Shown: piece by piece, positions 9,945-55,530 of the stretch | Layout of the letters: every line of letters begins with the position of its first letter | How positions within the stretch are numbered: position 1 is the stretch's first letter | Assembly: GCA_946699065.1 (NCBI GenBank) | Contig: CAMPDV010000010.1 | Span: forward strand, 868,001-932,000 | Direction: 5' to 3' | Source of the DNA: Loxodes magnus | Lineage: Eukaryota; Ciliophora; Karyorelictea; Loxodida; Loxodidae | Length of the DNA: 64,000 nt | Position numbers and translations under genes: made by a program | Notes under the pieces: model-generated | The model's database searches: none | What the model saw: only the letters and a program-made list of their open reading frames with translations | What the model was told of the DNA's origin: nothing

Positions 9945-10018
9945 GGTCGCATAGCTCAGCTGGTTAGAGCGCTGTGCTAATAACGCAGAGGTCGTGAGTT
10001 CGAGACTCACTGTGACCA
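9945..10018 (+). tRNA. tRNA-Ile (anticodon AAT)
   Basis: Cloverleaf readable by eye. Acceptor 9945-9951 pairs with 10011-10017 (one G-T), the discriminator is A10018, the D arm is GCTCAGCTGGTTAGAGC, the anticodon stem is CTGTG/CGCAG with loop CTAATAA, and the T arm carries GGTCG..GTTCGAGAC. The anticodon AAT decodes Ile. CCA is not encoded. Five T's at 10019-10023 form a typical RNA polymerase III terminator. No intron. Confidence 0.96.
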
Positions 10019-12449: not shown

Positions 12450-14120
12450 ATGATTCGCCCAGGTTCTGCTTTGACTAGAATGAAATAAAAATAATCAGCT
12501 CCAGGAGGACCTACTGCTGTGAAAAAGGAGTAGTAAGTTCCAACACTAAATGAAATGGTCTAAAAGAGAGATTGATCAGGAGCAATTACTTTACTAGAGT
12601 TTTAGAAAAAAGGAAAAGATGAAAAAACGCTTCTTTGAGTTGCATATTGTGCTTTTCATTTAGGAGAATATAAGAAAGCATTAGATTGCTATGATGATCT
12701 GACTAATAGACCTGACTATAATACAGATCTCCATTTATACAAAGCTTGTTGTCATTATGCATTTTGCGATTATGAAAAAGCATATGAAGAGTGTTTAAAA
12801 ACGAAAGAAAGTCCTCTACAAATAAGACTTATGTTTCATATTGCTCATAAAAGAGGAGACGAAAATGCTTTAATGGTATATCACCATAAGCTAGGATCTG
12901 AAACAGAAGATTAACTCTGTATTGCTGCAATACATTACCTTCGTTCGCATTTTGAAGACGCTACTGACATTTATAAAAGATTGCTTCTAGACAATAGAGA
13001 ATATCATGCGCTTAACGTCTATATTGCACTATGCTACTATAAACTGGATTATTATGATGTCTCATTAGAAATTTTGAATGTTTATCTATCTTAAGAGCCA
13101 CATAGCGTAACAGCAGTAAATCTAAGAGCATGTAACCATTTCTAACTTTATAACGGAAGAGCTGCTGAATAAGAATTAAAGGCACTTTAATAAGCATCAG
13201 CATCAGGAAATGTATTCTAATAGAATGATCTTTTGAGACATAATTTGGTTGTATTTCGTGGAGGAGAAGATGCTCTTTAGGTGCTACCTCCATTGGTAGA
13301 AGTTATACCTGAAGCCAAGCTGAATCTTGTGATTCACTATTTAAAAAATTCAGAAATATAAGAAGCTTATAACTTAATCAAGGATTTAGAACCAATGGCT
13401 CCTAACTAATATATTATAAAAGGAGTAGTTCATGCTATGCTTGGATAAGAAACGGAATCTAAGGAACATCTGAAAATTGCTTAATAGCTATTTTAGTTGG
13501 TTGGAGCTTCGGCTGCAGAATGTGATACAATTCCTGGAAGATAATGTATGGCTTCTTGCTTCTTTTTGCTAAAATAGTTCGAAGACGTTTTGGTTTATCT
13601 TAAAAGCATAAGGTAGTATTTTTAAAACGATGATGATTTTAACTGGAACTACGGCATAGCAAGTGCTGCAGCTGGAGAGTATAAAGAAGCAGAAGAAGGA
13701 CTATTATTAATACAAAACGAAAAGCATAAAACTGACTATGTTTATCTATCTTGACTTGCAAGAATTTATATTATGAATGGGAAAGCAGGTGCAGCTTGGA
13801 ATCTATACATAAATATGGAAACTAGCAACGAATCTTTTTCTCTCTTACAACTCATTGCTAATGACTGTTATAGAATGGGCCATTTTTATTACGCAGCAAA
13901 AGCTTTTGATGTATTAGAAAGACTTGACCCTGATCCAGAATATTGAGAAGGCAAAAGAGGAGCCGTTGTAGGAGTTTTCTAAATGCTTGTAGCAGGTAAA
14001 GAAGATAATGAACACTTGTTAGAAGTTGTTGACCTACTAAGAAATACAAATAACCCCCAAGTAGAATATATAATTAAAGTTATTAAGAAATGGGGTAAGG
14101 AAAACAATTTACAAATCTGA
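12450..14120 (+). CDS. IFT56: IFT56/TTC26 intraflagellar transport complex B subunit
   Basis: 556 residues, no intron, ATG 12450, TGA 14118. TPR-rich protein matching IFT56 (TTC26/DYF-13) along its full length: [140 protein letters not shown]56 belongs to the peripheral IFT-B complex and helps import motility-related cargo into cilia. Four in-frame TGAs read as Trp; three of them fall where the family has Trp (before VAYCAFHLG, in YLSWLARIYI, in PEYWEGKRG). The next TGA follows [11 protein letters not shown], where the family ends. Identification is very strong and calibrates the code. Confidence 0.97.
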
Positions 14121-14755
14121 TTTGTTATCATTTTATTTCCAACTTACTCATTATTGTATTCCTATATATCTACTTAATCTTCATTATCTTAATCAATTCT
14201 TATATAAAACGATAGTTTAAAAATATCAGGAACACATATAATTAAGAAATTACTTGCTGTAAAGTATTAACTCTAAGTTAGCTGTGATTTATCTTTATAA
14301 CTAATATAGAAATTTATACCTTTTTAATACATAATTGAAGTATCTCTTACACTATAAGCTTAATTTGCTTATTATTAAGTTATTCACTTAGCCAATCTAA
14401 TGCTCTGTTTATAAATAGATTCTATTCTAATTTTGATATTATATCTCTCTTATTTGATTGAATAACCTTATATTGTAAATTACATTGCTAAAGGTTTAAA
14501 TAGCTTAATTTGATTCTTATACTTTATAAGGAAGGATGATTCTCATTAGAAGATAAAGTATTAAAGTTAAAAGCTATCTTAATAATATCGTAGTGAAGGA
14601 AAATTTTATTAATCTTAGGATATGAATAGTTCTATTCATTATCTGCCATATAAAGGGGAATTTTTACTAAAGAGAATTAATTAACTTTAGAGGGGAAAGA
14701 TAATGAACTAAAATGCTTAAACTAAAACATTTAAATAAGAATTAAATAAAAGCTA
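14121..14755. other. Intergenic spacer between convergent genes
   Basis: AT-rich; nothing recognisable. IFT56 and the next minus-strand gene converge on it. Confidence 0.5.
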
Positions 14756-23670: not shown

Positions 23671-24248
23671 ATACAGTTTATTTAAACAAATATACTTTTA
23701 ATTCACTTTAATTCAATTACGCCTGCTACTCTATACCTTACCTACTTACAGAGCTGCATTCAAAATATACTATTATATACAAAGATGCTAATTAGAGTAA
23801 GCTAGCTTCATAGTGGAACTGGTGGTATATGATAGCGAATTAATGATTAAACTATGGAGATGGTAAGTGAGAATAGTAAAGTATTAGTTTAATCTTTAAA
23901 TTAAGGAAATTTATAAAAGAAAGTAAATAAGCAGTATTTTAAGGCTTTACATTATTAAGAGGAAGAAACTCCATAAGCATGTTAAGTTTAAACCATAACA
24001 GTTAGTTAAGGTTAGCTGTATATGCATACAGAAGAAGTCAAATATAGGTAGGTTGAATGTTGTTTAATAAGAAGTTTAATTTTCTTACTTATAAGGTAGT
24101 GGAAAGTAAGCAGAGGATAATAGTGGGTTAGGATTAAAGAAATTTAATAAATAGTTGAATAAGTAATCGTAAAGGCATGTAGTAGTTTATAGAAATAAAG
24201 GGATAATAATGATTTCATTAATAATAAAAAGGATATTAGAACTATTAA
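23671..24248. other. Spacer between divergent genes
   Basis: AT-rich; presumably holds both promoters, with no recognisable element. Confidence 0.5.
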
Positions 24249-25913
24249 ATGGAAAACTCTCAAAAATACGAAACAAGTAGGAATATGCTTAGAAGAATTA
24301 ATGAAAAGCGAAAACTCTCCGCTAACGCTAAGCCTATGCTTTTTCCTGTTCCTAACCCGCAAGCTAATATGAATTCTCCTACTTTGTAAACCTAATTAAA
24401 TAAATTACTTTAGCATGAACCTGACTTTGATAAAGAAATTGATAGAGATTATGATGTTGTTAGCTCTCATTTAGGATCTGAGGGGAAGAATTCGAACATT
24501 GGGAAAAAGTTTCTTTAACTTAAGGACTTGGCAGTTGAACTAGAAAATGGTTAAAACAATGATTAGTCTTTGAGCGTTTCTGAGGAAATTTCTAGTTTTC
24601 AAAAAGAAGCTTTCAACTTTTCAGACTATTTCAGAAACCACTAAGGCTAAGAAGAAGAAAAGCACATTTAAGTAAGCCAGAAAGCTTCTCCTCTACTTCC
24701 GTAAAAAGCAAATGCTACTTAGACAAGATAAAATACAGTGAAAAAAGAATCTAATAAATATGAAACGCCTCTAAACACAAGATCCAAGTCTGAAGACAAG
24801 GGTAAAGAAATTTCCCCTTTAAATGGTATAGAAATATTAGGCGACTAGAGCAGTGTTTAGGAAGATGATATAGAAGAAAACGTTATACAATCAAATCCTG
24901 CTAAATAAGATGTATTATCTTAAAATCAGTCTCTTTTCAATAAAGAAAATGGCATAAATCAAAGTGATTATAAGATTAATAAATCTTATAATGTACAAAA
25001 TAAGAACTAAGATTAAGTCATTTAGAATCAAAACGAACTAAGGTAGCGAAACATACAAAAAAAGCCCTCTTAATTATCCACGAAGTAAAAGGAAATAAAA
25101 TTAGAGACAGATATTTAAGTGTAAAATATAGTTGAATTCAAAAATGTATAGTTGTCACCTATCATAAACCAGAGAAAAAAAGTAGAAACAAAACATAATT
25201 TAAATTATTAAAAAACAACTGAATGTCATACTTAGCAAAATAATTAAGATAAAGGCTCTCCTAAATAGTTTGACACCAACTTTAAAAACATTGATCTATT
25301 GTTTCCTGATTTTATAATAAGAGATAGAATAAGAAGTGGAGCTAATCCATTTGATGTTTAACAAGAGAATATAGTGCCTGCTAATAAGGAATAAGACTTA
25401 AATTTCAATGAGGACTAAGCTATGGAGCCTAATTAGAGAGTAAGAATATCTATTAATGAGTTTGTTCTTGAAGAGTAAAAATCCCCTAGAGATTCTACAA
25501 GCAGGATGACGTAATTTAATTAATAATTTTAGATAAAAAATAGTATTTTGTCCTAAATGCTAGCGTGATAGTGCTACGAAAGCTGAAAGGATAGTAACTA
25601 GAACAGCATAGAGGTAAATATAAATAAAGGGTAAAGTTAATCATTGGTAAAAGATATAAAGCACTTAATGTTCAGTTGCTTTTAAGGAAGCTTCTGCTAC
25701 GGTTCTGATGATTAGATAAAGGTTGTATACAAATGTAGAACCTGCCATGAAATTCTCATTTCTTAATTTGTTTTTCTTTTTTCATAAATTGAAAATTATA
25801 TTTCCCTAAGAAAATTTAATGTAACTGTTATCAACTAAAAGTGTAATTACTTCATCCTAAGAAATAAATGGGAACTATTTGTGGAAAATGGATGCTAAGA
25901 GTTAGTAAATTGA
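24249..25913 (+). CDS. Acidic Gln/Asn/Ser-rich protein with Cys pairs near C-terminus
   Basis: 554 residues, ATG 24249, TGA 25911, one exon. The first ~430 residues are disordered-looking (many Q, N, S, D, E), with TAA/TAG used freely for Gln. From about residue 437 the composition changes. A Cys cluster appears (FSCFQGSFCYGS, then YKCRTCHEIL, then NQKCNYF and NGCQELVN), which could bind zinc. Two in-frame TGAs near residues 440-446 (MLAWQCYESWKD) are read as Trp. The alternative is that the first of them (25566-25568) is the real stop and the Cys-rich tail is not made. The ordered, less AT-rich tail favours the long form. No family recognised. Confidence 0.7.
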
Positions 25914-26931
25914 ATGAATAAATGCTTATGGAATAAGGTGTCAAAAGTTATTATTTTTATTAAAGAAGTATCTAAATAATAGTACTTAATTAGTTATAAT
26001 GGAGCCAAGTGGATTGTAAAAGTAAGATATTCTAAGCAATATCAAATAAATTTTAACAGTATTTGTTTGCTAGAGGCACATCAATAATTAGAAATAATTA
26101 ATATAAATAATTAGTATAACTAACCAAATCTTAAAATTCATTTAAGACTAGCATTGCTATAACTTCATTGAATGATAATAGAAAAGGGCATTTAAACATA
26201 CACTTACAAACTATTACATCTTCAATAGTAAATACAATCTAATCAACACCAACATAAATAGGAACTTGATTGATATTTAAATGCTAAAGAAATCATTCTA
26301 CCCAATTAATTTACTAAGACTAGTCACTTAATATAATAAGCAAATAGTCCTAAATATTAAAAATTGTTCATAAAGCAAAATCTAATACAGTGTATCTTAA
26401 GCATTGATAAGTAACTATAAAGTTTAAAATTATAGATTAAGAATCTTAATTGCTTATAATTAACTATTTAAAGCCGAATTCTTTATTAAAATAAGCATAT
26501 AAAGGGTAAATAGTCTATTAACTATCAATTTTAATAGCAAAATTAATGATTTATTCAGTTCTTTTTATTTCTTCTAAGCAAGAGTAAAATAATGCTAGAT
26601 TGATGCAATATTCTGTATACAAGATTACTTATCATTCTTATTAGAAGCAAGCGAAATATTACTAGGATGCTTAAAGTATAAATAGTTAAATTTGATTTGG
26701 AAGTATTTATATATTGTAATCTGTGATGAAATAGCATTATTATAAAAATTTCTTATTTTATGCAGAGAGAGATAGGCAAAATATAATAGCCAGAGGTGAA
26801 TGAATGATTTTATACCTAATGCTTACTAGATTTTGCTATATTGTATAAAGGATTGATATGTTAAAAGCATATTAAAGCTTCTCTTAATTCTTATTTTTAA
26901 TTTTAATAGTTTACTTTAAATTTATTTATTC
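25914..26931. other. Spacer between convergent genes
   Basis: AT-rich; no supported feature. Confidence 0.5.
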
Positions 26932-28299
26932 TCAAACTTCCTGTCTTTCGAAACTTGGCTTGTTTTCTTAATTAATGCTTTCCTTTTACGAGCTTTTTGA
27001 TTATTTCAATTCTATTTCATCATGTTCTAAAAATTTCTCTGTATCTAAGTGGGAAATTTCGAAAGGTTCACAGAAGCTTAAAGTAACTACATGACTATAG
27101 CCACAACTTAACTAATTATAATAAAGACTTACTTTTTTAGCTTTTATTTGGTAATCATAAATTTGGACAGGGGCGATATTATGAGTTTTGGGTAAATCTT
27201 TGCCAAGACATCCCTAGAGATTACTTCCAAAGCCAATAATACTTCCGTCATTAAGGAGTAGTAAATTAAAGTGACTTTTAGTGCAGATTTTTTCTACTTT
27301 AGGCTTAATAGAATCCAAAACTGTAGCTTCTTATTGTATATATTTAATGTCTGTTTTTATTCCTAGTTAGCCAAAGCAGTTCGCTCCTCATATATATACT
27401 TCACCCTAAGAAGTCAAAGCAATCGAATGATAAATTCCGCATTGAATATCTTTAATTTTAATTCTTAGCTAATCGTTGTGCTCGTAGTTTTTGAACTTAA
27501 CTTCTTAAGGAGACAAAATATCTTAGTAGCTTGAATTTAATTCAATATAAGGATTTCCTCATGTATATATTCTATTTTTCTCTACATTTAAAGCTAATAC
27601 ATGTGACATTCCTGCAGACACTCTACTAAACCCTCCTATTTCATTAAGAGGTATTTAGGTAGGTTTATCGGCTTTTTAATATGATCCTAAACCAAGAACT
27701 CCGAATTTTTACCATCCAAAAGAATAAGCTTCATTCTTATTATTTATCACTATAGTGAAATTTTTTCCACATGCAACATCTTTGACATTCATATCTCAAA
27801 AGAAATCTACAATCTTAGGTTCAATCTAAATGTTACTTCTTAGATCAATACCGTTGTTTATTTTACTATTAAGAGAAAGTCTATATCCAAGCTAATTATC
27901 GTCACCGCATCCTCAAGAAAATAAAAGTCCTTAATCAGAAATGGCACAGACATGATTAGATCCCACTGATATTTTTACGATATTAATATCTGGCTGCATA
28001 TCTTAAACATTTTAAACTTTATTTGGATTTTATTGCTAGTTTATTATACTTTCTCTCTGATATTCTTCTAATTACTTGTTAAAGGCAATTTGAACTGGTT
28101 TATCAATCTACTCAGAAGGTAGTTATCCACATTAAGCATATATGTTTTCTCCCCAACATAGCATATCATTATTGTTGGTTTTTACAAATGTATTATATGG
28201 CCCACAATATATTTTTTCGAATGCTTTTATATTATTGAAATGCCTTCCTGATTTGTCTATGATTTATCCCTAGTCGTTGCTTCCAAACATAAAGAGCAT
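26932..28299 (-). CDS. RCC1-repeat protein
   Basis: 455 residues, ATG 28299, TGA 26934-26932, no intron. It opens with the first blade strand LFMFGSNDQGQIIDKSG. Further RCC1-type blades follow: NNDMLCWGENIYAQCGQL, SDQGLLFSWGCGDDNQLGY, NNKNEAYSFGWQKFGVLGLG, TSQGEVYIWGANCFGQLGI, LLNDGSIIGFGSNLQGCLG, with connecting ISVGSNHVCAI, VACGKNFTIVI, IQCGIYHSIAL and LSCGYSHVVTL strands. That supports a six- to seven-bladed propeller. Three in-frame TGAs fall exactly at the blade Trp. RCC1 propellers serve as Ran exchange factors or, more often in protists, as scaffolds; the exchange-factor surface cannot be judged by eye. The C-terminal ~40 residues are charged and outside the propeller. Confidence 0.9.
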
Positions 28300-28478
28300 C
28301 TTACTTCCTATAGAATCTTATAATTTGAATGTTGGTTATTTTTACCCCATATTATAAGATAAAAAGCAAGATTAAATATTTAATCAGACTTTATGCTTTA
28401 TTTACGGTATTAAGATAGCAGGTTTATTAAAATTAATATAAAATCATCCTTTTAAATTCGTTTTTTATTACACTTTAT

Positions 28479-30074: not shown

Positions 30075-30313
30075 TTATATAAAACAATCCACTTTAAAGA
30101 TTAAAATAAAGAGTCAATTACTAAAGCTTTAAGCCTAAATAGAGCTATTTATTATAAGTAAAGCTATTTAAATTCCCTTTTCTACCATACCACTCACTGC
30201 TTATTCTATATTCCCTTCTTTCTTATCTGCTATGATTTGATCCATATTAGATAGCATTTCAACTAACTGTCTTTAAAGTTATTTAATTTCTTGATTATAA
30301 ATCAAGACTGTAA

Positions 30314-31873
30314 ATGGATAACAACAAGAATAGCTCTAAGACTTGAAGTAGTTCAGTAAAGATTTCTAGAAGCTAATAAGTTTTTAGAGGAAAGCCATTT
30401 AGCTAGAGTGTCTAGACTAAGGTTTAAGTAATTAAAAATTAGACTAATAGAAATGTATAAAGCAATAAGGCTTAGCATTTACAACCTAAATTTTCTCTTT
30501 CTCCTAGACCTACTTAAAGAGCTTAAATGAGAGGCTTAAAATAAGAAGAGAGCACTTTTAGAAGTTCATTGAGAAGTGATTATAAAACACCTATTTCTTT
30601 GCAGAAGGTTATTGAGTAGAATACTATAAAGAAGCAGAATCAGGGGATTAATAATTAATTGTCCAAATCCTATAGATTAAATGAAACTTCATTCTCGCTA
30701 AGTGTTAAAAAACTGGATGTTAGAAGGTAATCGCTTTCAAAGTAAATCATACAAAAGTAAGTAAAAATAAAGCCCTTGAGTTAAAATGTAGTCTAAAGGC
30801 TTTAATAAATAAAGAAGGAGGAATATAAGCAGTTACCTATTCCAAGAGGATTTTAGCTTCAAAATACTTTTTATGTTGGCCCTGGCAACAATAGCGAGCT
30901 AGTAATTCGAACTTTGATTAGTAAAGGACTAACATAAGAATTAGACAAAAATAAAACAGTAAAAGTTCGCTGAATTTTATAGCCTTATGGAATAGACTAC
31001 GAGAATCTATGGACTGGAATGCTAGCTAATCATGTCCCTGAACTCTACAAATTTTTCACATGAAAATCTAATTTGCATCATATTCTAGTTCAAGGAGGAG
31101 CTGCATCCATACAGCCTAAAACATTTCAATTGACAAATAGAAAAGAAACAGAAAGTTTTCTAAATGATACAAAAGGAGGAATTTGGTTATGGAAGCCACC
31201 AGATTTAAGCTAAGGTAAAGGGATAAAGGTATACAAAAATGTAATAGATTTAAAAAAGGAAGTAAAGAATAAGTAGTTAAAGAGAGGAATTATTCAAAGG
31301 TATCTTGAAAACCCTTTGCTTTTACATGAAAACAAATTTGACATAAGATGTTATGCTTTAGTTGCTCACTGTAAGCCTCTTATAGCATTTTGATACCCTG
31401 AATATTATATAAGAAGATCACTAGAAAAATTTGATTTGTAGAGTGATAATTATATGGTTCATTTAACAAATAACTCTATTCAAAAGAAGCATGAATAATT
31501 CAATGCAATGAAGGAAGAAACCATATGAAGTAAAGAGTAGTTCTCAAACTATATCTAAGGAGATCTTATTCGAAAAATCGATGAACAAATCTTTAGTCAA
31601 ATCAAAACTCTTTTTACAGTAACCAAAAATCATATAAGGTAAAAAGCAGGATGCTTTGAACTACTAGGACTCGACTTTATGATAACTAAAGATAACAAAG
31701 TTTGATTTATAGAAGCAAACACGAACCCTGCACTTTGATAAGATACAACTGTTTAGTAGTCTTTAATAGAAAAAATGCTAAGCGATTTAGTTGACTTGGT
31801 CTTTCATCTGAATTTAGACAATGGAATTGGAAAAGAATTGAAAGGAAACCTGTTTTAGTAGGCTTACCCATGA
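30314..31873 (+). CDS. Tubulin-tyrosine-ligase-like (TTLL) enzyme
   Basis: 519 residues, ATG 30314, TGA 31871, no intron. A Ser/Gln-rich N-terminal extension (~190 residues) precedes the ATP-grasp TTL domain. Visible motifs: VKVRWILQPYGIDYENLWTG, GGIWLWKPPDLSQGKGI (ATP-binding loop, about 288), IIQRYLENPLLL, KFDIRCYALV, MVHLTNNSIQKK, GCFELLGLDFMI and VWFIEANTNPAL (metal-binding Glu/Asn, about 460-474). Such enzymes ligate amino acids (Tyr, Glu or Gly) to tubulin tails. Which one cannot be read here, but glutamylation or glycylation is usual for ciliary TTLLs. Seven in-frame TGAs are read as Trp, including the VWFIEAN and NPALW positions. Confidence 0.93.
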
Positions 31874-43296: not shown

Positions 43297-45585
43297 TTAT
43301 TCCTCTTTTTCAATTTCCATGAATTTAAGTATTTTTTTGTCAATTAAGTTGAATAACTTGATATCTACTGGATCCTCTGCTTTCTAGTTGATAACTTTAT
43401 TGCAGAACTCAAGTACCTTATCTAGTTCTTAATGGATTTTAATACTATTTAAGGTTTCTTTTTTCTGTAATTTAAATTAAGGTGACAGTGAGAATTCATT
43501 TTAACAATCTAAATCAACTTCTTTCTATCAGACAGTAGGTTTAGAGATATAGTTGAATACGATTAATTGATTATCATCAAATATTATTTATTTTAATTTT
43601 TCTATTTCTATCATTTTTTTTACTAAGTAGTCAGCTTCTAAATAATCTTTGATCATCTCTTCTGCTTTTTCAAAAATTTCTATTTTCTTTTAGTTTTCAT
43701 TCTTTATTTAAAGTTCTTAATTCTATTTATTGCATCTTTTAAATATCTTGTTGAAATAGTATTAGAAAAAATTCGTTTTAAAGCTATTCTGTTCTTTATT
43801 TCTAGTTCTTAAATAATCTATTTTTTTATCAATTGGCATTTGAAGATTTAATCGTTTAGTGGATTTATTACTAGTTTATGGTTCTTATTTAAAGCTTTAT
43901 TCAGATGTAGGATATCATTTTTAACTCGTTTCATTCAAACTTTCTTTCGGTATTTAGTAATCCTTTCCTTGTTATTTTTTCTCTCCAAATTTATAGATAA
44001 GGGGATTCGAAAATTTAGGATTTTCAATTTCATCGATAGTTTGATTATTTTATAGAATTTCCTCTTCTTTTTTCTAATTTTAAAACGAATCTGTTAAAAT
44101 GTCAGGTGATATCTTTACTCTTTCTGAGTTCTCTTTTACTTATTGAATATTTTGCTTGGCTATTTGATATATTTATTACTAACTCACATTTATAGAACTT
44201 TCATTTTTTATATCTTTAGCTTAATCTTTATTTTCATCAATGGAGATAACTTCTAAATCTTAAGTGTGAAAATCCACTCTCGTCATTTCGTTCTTTAACG
44301 GTTTTTTGCGCGTGCTTTTTCAGTTATTTTATCATCCAGAAGCCAATTATTCGCAACTAAGATTAAAATCAATACCACCAGTCTATGGATAAATTTTTTT
44401 GCTAGGTTTCTTTTAGGTTTACGAAGAACTAAGCGTTTAATTTGTTTAAAGCTGCTTATCTTGAAAATCTTCTCATTCAAAAATATCATTAACAAACTTA
44501 TTTGCGAAGGCATATTAAGCATAGATTCTTACCAAGAAAGAGCAAGTTATAAGAATAATATTAAGAGTACCTCCTATCTAAGCAATTACATCTTGGAATT
44601 TCTTGTACCTTCTCTTATATTATAATATGAAGTCAGAAGAGTGAATATATAACTAAAAAAAATAAGGATTTTCTTATTAAAAGTTAGCAGAAAAATCATC
44701 TTAACTTCTTTCTATTAAAATATCCCTTTACGTATAAGAGTTTTCCAATAAAAAGCCATCATCAGTTATAATCTCAATGGATTTGATGAACATAATACTT
44801 TATTTAGAGGAATACATATCAATAGTTCAAAATTATTCATTAAGCTTGTCTTTGATAGGCTGTTCGTAATTAGAAATATCGATTATTTTGTCAGTATTTG
44901 TGAGCTAAAAATAAAAGTTATTTTAAACTAACTTCTGAATTTCACTTTATGAAGCACATATAATATCTGAATCTGATGAGTTCTAGCACACTTTTACTTT
45001 TATATATAAACCACTCATATTAATTTCAGTTCATCAACCTCCTACTTAAAATGTTTCTTGGTCAATACACTAGCTGTGTTAATAATTTGAGAGCGGTCTA
45101 TTGAATTAGTCTTCAAATCCTTTAAAATAGCTAATATCGCACTATTTTGAAGGAATAGGCTAAGTATAGATATTATCAGGAGTTTGAATAATATATCCTA
45201 TTTCAATGGAGAAATATTGAGGTTATATTTCAATAATTTAAGTCTCATTTGACAATGCAAAGGTCAAAGTGAAATTATTCTTTCCAATGTACTACCATGG
45301 AGCTTATTCTTATTTTATGACTTAAGAAATAACATTTGGATTTGTTTTATTAACCATATCACTTCCCATATTAAAAAAGGCAAGCAAAAATAGTCCGTAA
45401 GTGCAAACAGATAAGAAAGTCCCAAAAAATGTATGGAATCCATTAAATCTTTTGTAAGTCAGTCTAATTTGAGTAGGGTAAATATCAAAAAAATATAAAA
45501 GATTTAATTCCATTTTTTATTTATCTTCTATTATATTTACTTCATTCTTAACTAAAAGACAAATGCTCACTTAAAGTCTTTTAAC
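42900..45585. repeat. Duplicated segment, copy A
   Basis: Matches 52910-55530 in the two-TM gene, in about 70 bp upstream of its ATG (both carry a near-identical TTTTATTTATCTTCTATTAT stretch) and in 3' flanking sequence. Looser similarity seems to continue towards 46.2 kb and 56.1 kb. Edges are by eye. Confidence 0.75.
43297..45513 (-). CDS. Two-TM ciliate membrane protein, copy 1
   Basis: 738 residues, ATG 45513. TM1 lies about residues 28-50 (FHTFFGTFLSVCTYGLFLLA) after a short MELNLLYFFDIYPTQIRLTY start. A ~260-residue lumenal or extracellular domain with paired Cys (about 125, 149, 176, 186) follows. TM2 lies about 313-333, preceded by YKRRYKKFQDVIAQIGG. The ~400-residue Gln/Lys-rich cytoplasmic tail ends LFNLIDKKILKFMEIEKEE. 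The layout resembles a family of ciliate membrane proteins of unknown role. TAA/TAG are Gln throughout. No TGA follows in frame nearby. The coordinates stop at TAA 43299-43297; alternatively a 24-nt intron (43265-43288) would create a split TGA. Close paralogue at 53238-55454. Confidence 0.75.
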
Positions 45586-53237: not shown

Positions 53238-55530
53238 TTATTCCTCTTTTTCAATTTCCATGAATTTAAGTATTTTTTTGTCAATTAAGTTGAATAACTT
53301 GATATCTACTGGATCCTCTGCTTTCTAGTTGATAACTTTATTGCAGAACTCAAGTACCTTATCTAGTTCTTAATGGATTTTAATACTATTTAAGGTTTCT
53401 TTTTTCTGTAATTTAAATGAAGGTGACAGTGAGAATTATCTTGAGCTAAGTAGTTCAATTTCCTGTGAACAGACAGTAGGTTTAGAGATATAGTTGAATA
53501 CGATTAATTTATTATCATCAAATATTATTTGTTTTAATTTTTCTATTTCTATCATTTTTTTTACCAAGTAGTCAGCTTCTAAATAATCTTAAATCATCTC
53601 TTCTGCTTTTTCAAAAATTTCTATTTTCTTTTAGTTTTCATTCTTTATTTAAAATTCTTAATTCTATTTATTGCATCTTTTAAATATCTTGTTGAAATAG
53701 TATTAGAAAAAATTCATTTTAAAGTTATTCTACTATTTATTTCTAGTTCTCAAATAATCTATTTTTTTATCAATTGGCATTTGAAGATTTATTTGGTTGG
53801 TGAATTTATTTTTAGTTTATGGTTCTTATTTAAAGCTTTATTCAGAAGTAGGATATCAATTTTATCTTGTTTCATTCAGGCCACTTATTGGTATTTAGTG
53901 ATCGCTTACTAGTTGTTTCTCTTCTCCAAAATTACAGATACTTCCATTTGAAAGACTAGGGTTTTCAATTTCATCAATTGTTTGATTATTTTATGGAATT
54001 TCTCCTTCTTTTTTCTAATTTTAAAATGAATGTTTTGAAATATCAGATGTTGTCTTCTCTCTTTCTTAGTTCTCTTTTATATCATGAAGATTTTTTTAAT
54101 TTGTTTGGTTTTCTTACTACTAATTAACATTTTTAGAAGTTTCATTTTTTTCATCTTTAGCTTAATTTTTATTTTCATCAATAGAATTTTCTTCTAAATC
54201 TTAAGTGTGAAAATCCACTCTCGTCATTTCGTTCTTTAACGATTTTTTGCGCGTGCTTTTTCAGTTATTTTATCATCCAGAAATTATTTCTTCACAACTA
54301 GGGCTTAAATTTGCATTTTCATTCTTTGGATAAATTTTATTGTTAGGTTTATTTTTTTGGTATGAAATGTTTGGAATTTAAATTGATTAAAATTTATCAT
54401 CTTATAAGTTCTCTAAATCAAAAATATCATTAGCAAACTTATTAGCAAAGGCATATTAAGCATAGATTCTTATCAAGAAAGAGCAAGTTATAAGAATAAT
54501 ATTAAGAGTACCTCCTATCTAAGCAATCACATCTTGGAATTTCTTGTACCTTCTCTTATACTACAGTATATTGTCAGAAGAGTGAATATATAACTAAAAA
54601 AAATAAGGATTTTGCTACTAGAAGTTAGCATTAAAATCATCTTAACTTCTTTCTAGTTAAATATATCTTTACGTATAAGAGTTTTCCAATAAAAAGCCAT
54701 CATCAGTTATAATTTCAATGGATTTGATGAACATAGTACTTTATTTAGAGGAATACATATCAATAGTTCAAAATTATTCATTAAGCTTGTCTTTGATAGG
54801 CTGTTCGTAATTAGAAATATCGATTATTTTGTCAGTATTTGTGAGCTAAAAATAAAAGTTATTTTAAACTAACTTCTGAATTTCACTTTATGAAGCACAT
54901 ATAATATCTGAATCTGATGAGTTCTAGCACAATTTTACTTTTATATATATACCACTCATATAAGGTTCAGATCACCACCCTCCTACTTAAAATTATTCTA
55001 GATCTATACATTAATTGAGATAGTATTTTGGTCCTGGTCTATTGAAATATTCTTCGAATCCTTTAAAATAACTAATATCACACTATTTTGAAGGAATAGG
55101 CTAAGTATAGACGCTTTAAGGGGTTTGAATAATATATCCTAATTCAAATGAGAAATACTGAGGTTATATTTCAATAATTTAAGTCTCATTTGACGATGCA
55201 AAGGTCAAAGTGAAATTATTCTTTCCAATGTACTACCATGGAGCTTATTCTTATTTTATGACTTAAGAAATAACATTTGGATTAGTTTTATACATCATAT
55301 CACTTCCCATATTTAAAAAGGCAAGCGTAAAAAGTATGTAAGTACAGATCGATAAGAAAGTCCCAAAAAATGTATGGAATCCATTAAATCTTTTGTAGGT
55401 CAATCGGATTTGAGTAGGATAAATATCTATAAAATATAAAAAATTTAAATCCATTTTTTATTTATCTTCTATTATATTTACTTCATTCTTAACTAAAAGA
55501 CAAATACTCACTTAAAGTCTTTTAAATTAT
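52910..55530. repeat. Duplicated segment, copy B
   Basis: Counterpart of 42900-45585, about 10 kb away in the same orientation. The distance from the two-TM start to the next 5' element (about 2.0 kb against 4.4 kb in copy A) suggests that copy B has lost the region matching 47.5-49.6 kb. Confidence 0.75.
53238..55454 (-). CDS. Two-TM ciliate membrane protein, copy 2
   Basis: 738 residues, ATG 55454, exactly the same ORF length as the copy at 43297-45513. The N-terminus and TM1 (YKRFNGFHTFFGTFLSICTY), the Cys-containing loop, TM2 (IGGTLNIILITCSFLIRIYA) and the last ~130 residues are nearly identical to copy 1. The cytoplasmic stretch of about residues 345-560 and short loop patches (around FNRPGPKYYLNQC and GGWSEPYMSG) differ strongly. 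No in-frame TGA closes the ORF; I end at TAA 53240-53238. As in copy 1, a 24-nt GTTTA..AAAG stretch just downstream would make a split TGA if spliced. Function unknown. Confidence 0.75.

Follow-up and report, generated by a model that had tools for sequence, protein, structure and literature searches.

Glutamine at UAA and UAG, and tryptophan or stop at UGA, in an IFT56 gene from a karyorelict ciliate that is very probably Loxodes magnus

Introduction

Code 27, the nuclear genetic code of karyorelict ciliates, reportedly rests in part on earlier work by Seah et al. in 2022. For Loxodes magnus this code (table 27) has been reported together with a somatic assembly of 706 Mbp; UAA and UAG specify glutamine, UGA is read as tryptophan or as stop, and 3′ ends are short and AT-rich, the 3′-UTR averaging 53 bp (PMC11441545). 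According to the portions of that paper available to us, the last 20 or so codons before L. magnus stops are poor in UGA and UAA, but not in UAG. The code also rests on earlier work that includes PMC4967479, the source, again in part, for a similar system: in Condylostoma magnum (table 28) UGA is likewise context-dependent near mRNA ends, but UAA and UAG serve as stops too. A further parallel is Blastocrithidia, in which UGA is Trp, tRNA-Trp(CCA) has an anticodon stem of four base pairs and eRF1 is changed at Ser70, to Gly, whilst UAR encodes Glu and UAA is the stop (PMC12153298, in part). The available parts of PMC13092985 and PMC12005148 refer to a four-pair tRNA-Trp(CCA) of Loxodes, for which both cite Swart et al. 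The main text of PMC11441545 contains neither 'tRNA' nor 'eRF1', and tRNA-Trp arrays of Loxodes went unmentioned in the portions of papers that a literature search, supplements and subscription papers apart, covered.

Here we consider a stretch of 64,000 nucleotides (the window) in which a reading of the letters alone had recognised an IFT56 gene using this code, and compare it with a second copy of the gene, with other genes of the same assembly and with the systems described above.

Results

An intact IFT56 gene

The sequence-only reading had described a full-length IFT56 carrying four in-frame TGA codons and many TAA and TAG codons, and this description was confirmed. With TAA and TAG translated as Gln and TGA as Trp, the gene forms one unbroken frame of 556 residues, in which 18 TAA and 8 TAG codons supply 26 Gln and four TGA codons supply Trp (Table 1). 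A phmmer comparison with Chlamydomonas IFT56 (PDB 8bd7 chain E), the sole IFT56 from outside this genome to be compared, gave E=2.5e-210 and 702.9 bits, aligning query residues 22–555 to residues 19–554 of the 555 in the chain without a frameshift. Full-length similarity that includes the C-terminus argues for membership of the IFT56 family, and it is in codon usage that the gene differs from its Chlamydomonas counterpart. The alignment of residue 555 with residue 554 of the chain also bears out the proposal that a fifth TGA stands where IFT56 proteins end. Three of the internal TGA codons had been assigned to conserved Trp positions; of these, codons 63 and 435 face Trp in Chlamydomonas, and codon 499 faces Leu there but TGG in the paralog. 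A tblastn search of IFT56 against phage records gave no match.

Table 1. Positions, strands and supporting comparisons for features of the window
Feature	Position	Strand	Evidence
IFT56 coding sequence, 26 TAA/TAG and 4 TGA in frame	12450..14117	+	Full-length Chlamydomonas match
Sense TGA, codon 42	12573..12575	+	Paralog TAT (Tyr); Chlamydomonas Tyr
Sense TGA, codon 63	12636..12638	+	TGA in both paralogs; Chlamydomonas Trp
Sense TGA, codon 435	13752..13754	+	Paralog TGG; Chlamydomonas Trp
Sense TGA, codon 499	13944..13946	+	Paralog TGG; Chlamydomonas Leu
Terminal TGA, probable stop	14118..14120	+	C-terminus of family; common to paralog; similarity ends there
AT-rich stretch unconserved in paralog, 21% GC against 33% in coding sequence	14121..14270	+	Paralog comparison
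RCC1-repeat protein segment, in-frame TGAs	26878..28353	-	
Tubulin-tyrosine-ligase-family segment, in-frame TGAs	30293..31849	+	
MYST histone acetyltransferase segment	36167..37534	-	Three TGAs face Trp (GKW, SYKSYW, KYWKGQ), two face Arg and Gln
Calcium-dependent protein kinase segment	37725..41648	-	Two TGAs face Trp (DIWS, KIWNS), 2/2 in the aligned region

A second copy of IFT56 lies on contig C186 of the same assembly (705,730,643 bases, 705.73 Mb), the window being on contig C10. The two copies share 535 of 556 residues, differ in the third position at 72 of 131 four-fold codons and have a dN/dS of 0.0073 with a dS of about 3, a value at which synonymous sites are near saturation. These figures bear on the suggestion that the gene is a decayed pseudogene, or mis-assembled, and that its TGA and TAA codons are real stops. 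Thirty standard-code stop codons in frame would be expected of such a gene, but a dN/dS this low between near-saturated copies indicates purifying selection, the homology is full-length and free of frameshifts, and in-frame TGAs recur both in other genes of the window and among the dynein C-terminal regions considered below (13 of 19). We regard decay or mis-assembly as extremely improbable.

The copies also exchange the codons in question. Besides the four sites in Table 1, both have TGG at codons 399 and 548, codon 450 is TGG in the window and TGA on C186, and codon 557, the terminal TGA, is the same in both; TGA and TGG are thus swapped at three of the six Trp sites common to the two copies. 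At Gln sites there are 10 swaps of TAA or TAG with CAA or CAG.

Similarity between the copies starts shortly 5′ of the ATG and ends at the terminal TGA, in agreement with the earlier claim that the gene closes at position 14120. The GC content falls from 33% in the coding sequence to 22% in the 60 nt past the stop in the window, and from 36% to 18% on C186, and neither copy has an in-frame TGA in the 99 codons beyond the terminal one. Homology and the loss of conservation together suggest that this TGA is used as the stop. The earlier reading had further pointed to the lack of a sense TGA in about the last 55 codons as a sign of a position-dependent signal. The observation is accurate, the last sense TGA being 58 codons before the stop, but it makes a weak positional argument, since the final 57 codons contain a single Trp (codon 548, TGG) and are uninformative alone.

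The same code in other genes

Four further segments of the window contain in-frame TGA codons, several of which face Trp in relatives of the predicted proteins (Table 1). For a wider survey we took two further regions of 100 kb, one upstream of the window and one surrounding the C186 paralog. A simple scan of codon usage marked 50 segments on C10, those of the window among them, and 36 on C186. Twelve likely paralog pairs, read by eye from a BLAST table, are common to G000:C10:768001-932000 and G000:C186:318001-418000, which points to segmental or whole-genome duplication.

Codon swaps were counted in 13 pairs, namely these twelve, IFT56 included, and one within C10, with TGA, TAA and TAG masked and a local identity of at least 50%. 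TGA stood opposite TGA in 11 codon pairs and opposite an unlike codon in 19 places, 12 of them TGG and seven others (Leu and Tyr twice each, Phe, Cys and TAG once each). TGG, for its part, faced only TGG (14 pairs) or TGA (12). Replacement or misalignment would also give the seven partners other than TGG, as well as the two mismatches among the five MYST codons. CAA or CAG stood opposite TAA 55 times and opposite TAG 44 times; codons for other residues did so 92 and 40 times, respectively, a spread like that of CAA and CAG themselves. Homology and codon swaps argue for Gln at UAA and UAG, and for Trp at UGA within genes. The alternation of TGA with TGG between paralogs, together with the TGA codons facing Trp of kinase and MYST relatives, speaks against selenocysteine or some other residue at these sites, to which we attach a negligible probability.

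The ends of the twelve pairs are less uniform. In five (A13/B21, A16/B15, A26/B1, A31/B8 and A33/B12, the last being IFT56) similarity breaks off at a TGA that occupies one and the same column in both copies; in two (A23/B34 and A29/B3) the TGAs of the copies are at most two or three codons apart, and in the remaining five a matching terminal TGA was not seen in the frame examined, perhaps owing to short introns or diverged ends. Within the window, a duplicated pair at 43297-45372 and 53238-55313 (both minus strand) is also without a nearby in-frame terminal TGA; by eye, excising a putative 24-nt GT-AG stretch from either copy would give a TGA split by an intron. A putative 29-nt GT-AG intron, also placed by eye, lies near the end of the segment at 24093-25655 (plus strand), and its removal would lead to two consecutive TGAs.

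Codon choice near dynein C-termini

The C-terminus of dynein heavy chains is conserved and includes a Trp a short way before its end. A genome search with the Pfam dynein heavy chain C-terminal domain produced 46 matches, several of which can belong to the same gene. Of 24 genes judged to extend to the end or nearly so, 20 were retained (genes on C6, C13, C26 and C100 were left out). In all 20 the C-terminus, placed by eye, is followed by TGA, and in all 20 the Trp lying 13–20 codons before the stop is TGG. Further upstream, Trp is encoded by 23 TGA and 85 TGG codons (23/108 TGA; Fisher p=0.023), an off-frame stretch of gene L054 with 8 TGAs having been dropped from the Trp counts and kept in those for Gln. 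A sense TGA occurs in 13 of 19 C-terminal regions and in none of the other six, L054 being left out. Glutamine codons show a sharper pattern: the last 20 codons contain 11 TAG, 5 CAG, 4 CAA and no TAA (n=20), against 177 TAA, 100 CAA, 71 TAG and 28 CAG further upstream (n=376; p=6e-6). Both p-values overstate the evidence because the genes are related. Taken with the published L. magnus data, the dynein set gives modest support to the position-dependent signal at TGA, unlike IFT56 alone.

The missing TAA codons touch on whether the code could be of the Condylostoma kind, with UAA and UAG as further stops. They hint at possible recognition of UAA by eRF1, even now, towards the end of the message; a rare UAA stop in karyorelicts was reportedly suggested by Seah et al. 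in 2022, and the five paralog pairs in which no matching terminal TGA was seen could be counted on the same side. Yet TAG is the codon used in 8 of the 13 dyneins with a Gln four codons ahead of the stop, putative short introns of the type noted above can close some of the window genes seemingly without a terminal TGA, and neither UAA nor UAG ends any of 22 genes, the two IFT56 copies and the 20 dyneins, all of which close with TGA. A code with three stops is unlikely on this evidence. By homology, these 22 ends support UGA as a stop, as in code 27.

Transfer RNA genes

CCA is the anticodon of the tRNA-Trp genes that we fetched. In one class the 27-43 pair is mismatched (A.C on contig C67, U.C on C148), which leaves an anticodon stem of four base pairs, as in Blastocrithidia; this class would be predicted to decode UGA. 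The exact four-pair arm is present in 124 genomic copies (52 + 72), and the 100 matches listed are all on C67 and C148. The C67 array, with a spacing of about 187 bp, has 49 arms, and 48 tRNA-Trp genes are predicted in it. The usual 24-nt start is found in 48 units; the last of these is truncated, and the other 47 do not differ from each other over 72 nt. The one unit that starts differently was left out of the comparison. Across the 47 units none of the 72 tRNA columns varies, against 77 of 139 spacer columns. The exact five-pair arm has three copies, all on C110, whose T-stems contain one or two mismatches. An arm-pattern search of the genome, confined to the arm sequence, did not find a UCA version of the tRNA-Trp arm.

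A short arm pattern with a UUA or CUA anticodon gave 287 matches (160 + 127), against 12 for the control, and of eight examples retrieved, seven are predicted to be tRNAs carrying one or other of these anticodons. The codon swaps suggest that they are charged with Gln. A four-pair stem considered for the CUA-anticodon tRNA was dropped, the drawn structure having five pairs. Among the matches listed, the CUA arm forms a tandem series with 588 bp spacing (G000:C130:557668-566488) and the UUA arm one with about 275 bp spacing (G000:C214:232619-235377), and both have many dispersed copies too. The genome listing also contains many copies of another tRNA, presumably tRNA-Cys. Because this tRNA and those with UUA and CUA anticodons are multi-copy as well, tRNA-Trp gene dosage is not established as a special cause, and the 124 copies do not clearly stand out. 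Within the window a single tRNA is predicted, a tRNA-Ile (AAU) at 9945-10018 on the plus strand.

The release factor eRF1

A search of the genome for eRF1 gave three matches, two eRF1 copies on contig C196 and a third sequence on C2 that we take to be Pelota. The two copies, L005 and L006, lie about 35 kb apart (G000:C196:19713 and 54613). Further in-frame TGAs occur within a few codons after the terminal TGA of each. With residues numbered along the human alignment, L006 has Ala at Glu55, RAQNIKS in place of TASNIKS, Ala at Ser70 and FLCENTF in place of YLCDNKF, so that sites E55, T58, S60, S70 and Y125 differ from human, and L005 has the same residues at these sites. Position 70 is thus altered here as in Blastocrithidia, to Ala rather than Gly.

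Discussion

We conclude that the IFT56 gene in the window is intact, is read with nuclear code 27 and comes from a karyorelict ciliate, which is very probably Loxodes magnus, and we put the probability of this explanation as a whole, mechanism included, at about 95%. The assignment of UAA and UAG to Gln and of UGA to Trp or stop, made in the sequence-only reading, is sustained by the paralog swaps, the kinase and MYST codons, the dynein ends, the tRNA genes and the altered eRF1, and it is from the code that a karyorelict origin of the window would follow. The IFT56 finding is a correct sighting of a code already published for L. magnus, and in codon meanings, AT-rich 3′ ends and the avoidance of UGA and UAA ahead of stops we found no difference from the published account. 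The ends of the IFT56 and dynein genes set it apart from Condylostoma, and its use of UAR for Gln and UGA for stop from Blastocrithidia.

A mechanism may be sketched from these components. UAA and UAG would be read as Gln by the tRNAs with UUA and CUA anticodons, whose genes are present. In the body of the message UGA would be read as Trp, most likely by tRNA-Trp(CCA) with the four-pair anticodon stem, as published work on such tRNAs elsewhere suggests, in competition with an eRF1 that the alignment shows to be altered at several stop-recognition residues, with a probable effect on that competition. Near the 3′ end of the mRNA the balance would shift towards eRF1, and the last UGA would terminate translation; the poly(A) tail and the proteins bound to it would probably bring about this shift, as has been suggested in the case of Condylostoma. 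If eRF1 is favoured near the mRNA 3′ end, sense UGA and UAA should therefore be avoided just before the stop, the pattern seen in the dyneins here and in the published L. magnus data.

A more specific version can be offered only tentatively, and we think it somewhat more likely to be wrong than right: that the tandemly amplified tRNA-Trp(CCA) with the broken 27-43 pair reads UGA against an altered eRF1 that still recognises UGA, weakly recognises UAA and does not recognise UAG. Were this so, tRNA dosage would make read-through the default and only the end of the mRNA would restore termination, and the avoidance before stops of UAA but not of UAG would be explained.

In conclusion, a context-dependent code that gives two meanings to a single codon has been independently confirmed from DNA alone. 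The paralog codon-swap test, and the use of dynein C-termini as a test of the positional rule, are both reusable, and the tRNA-Trp arrays and the changes in eRF1 bear on how UGA came to encode Trp in some ciliates.
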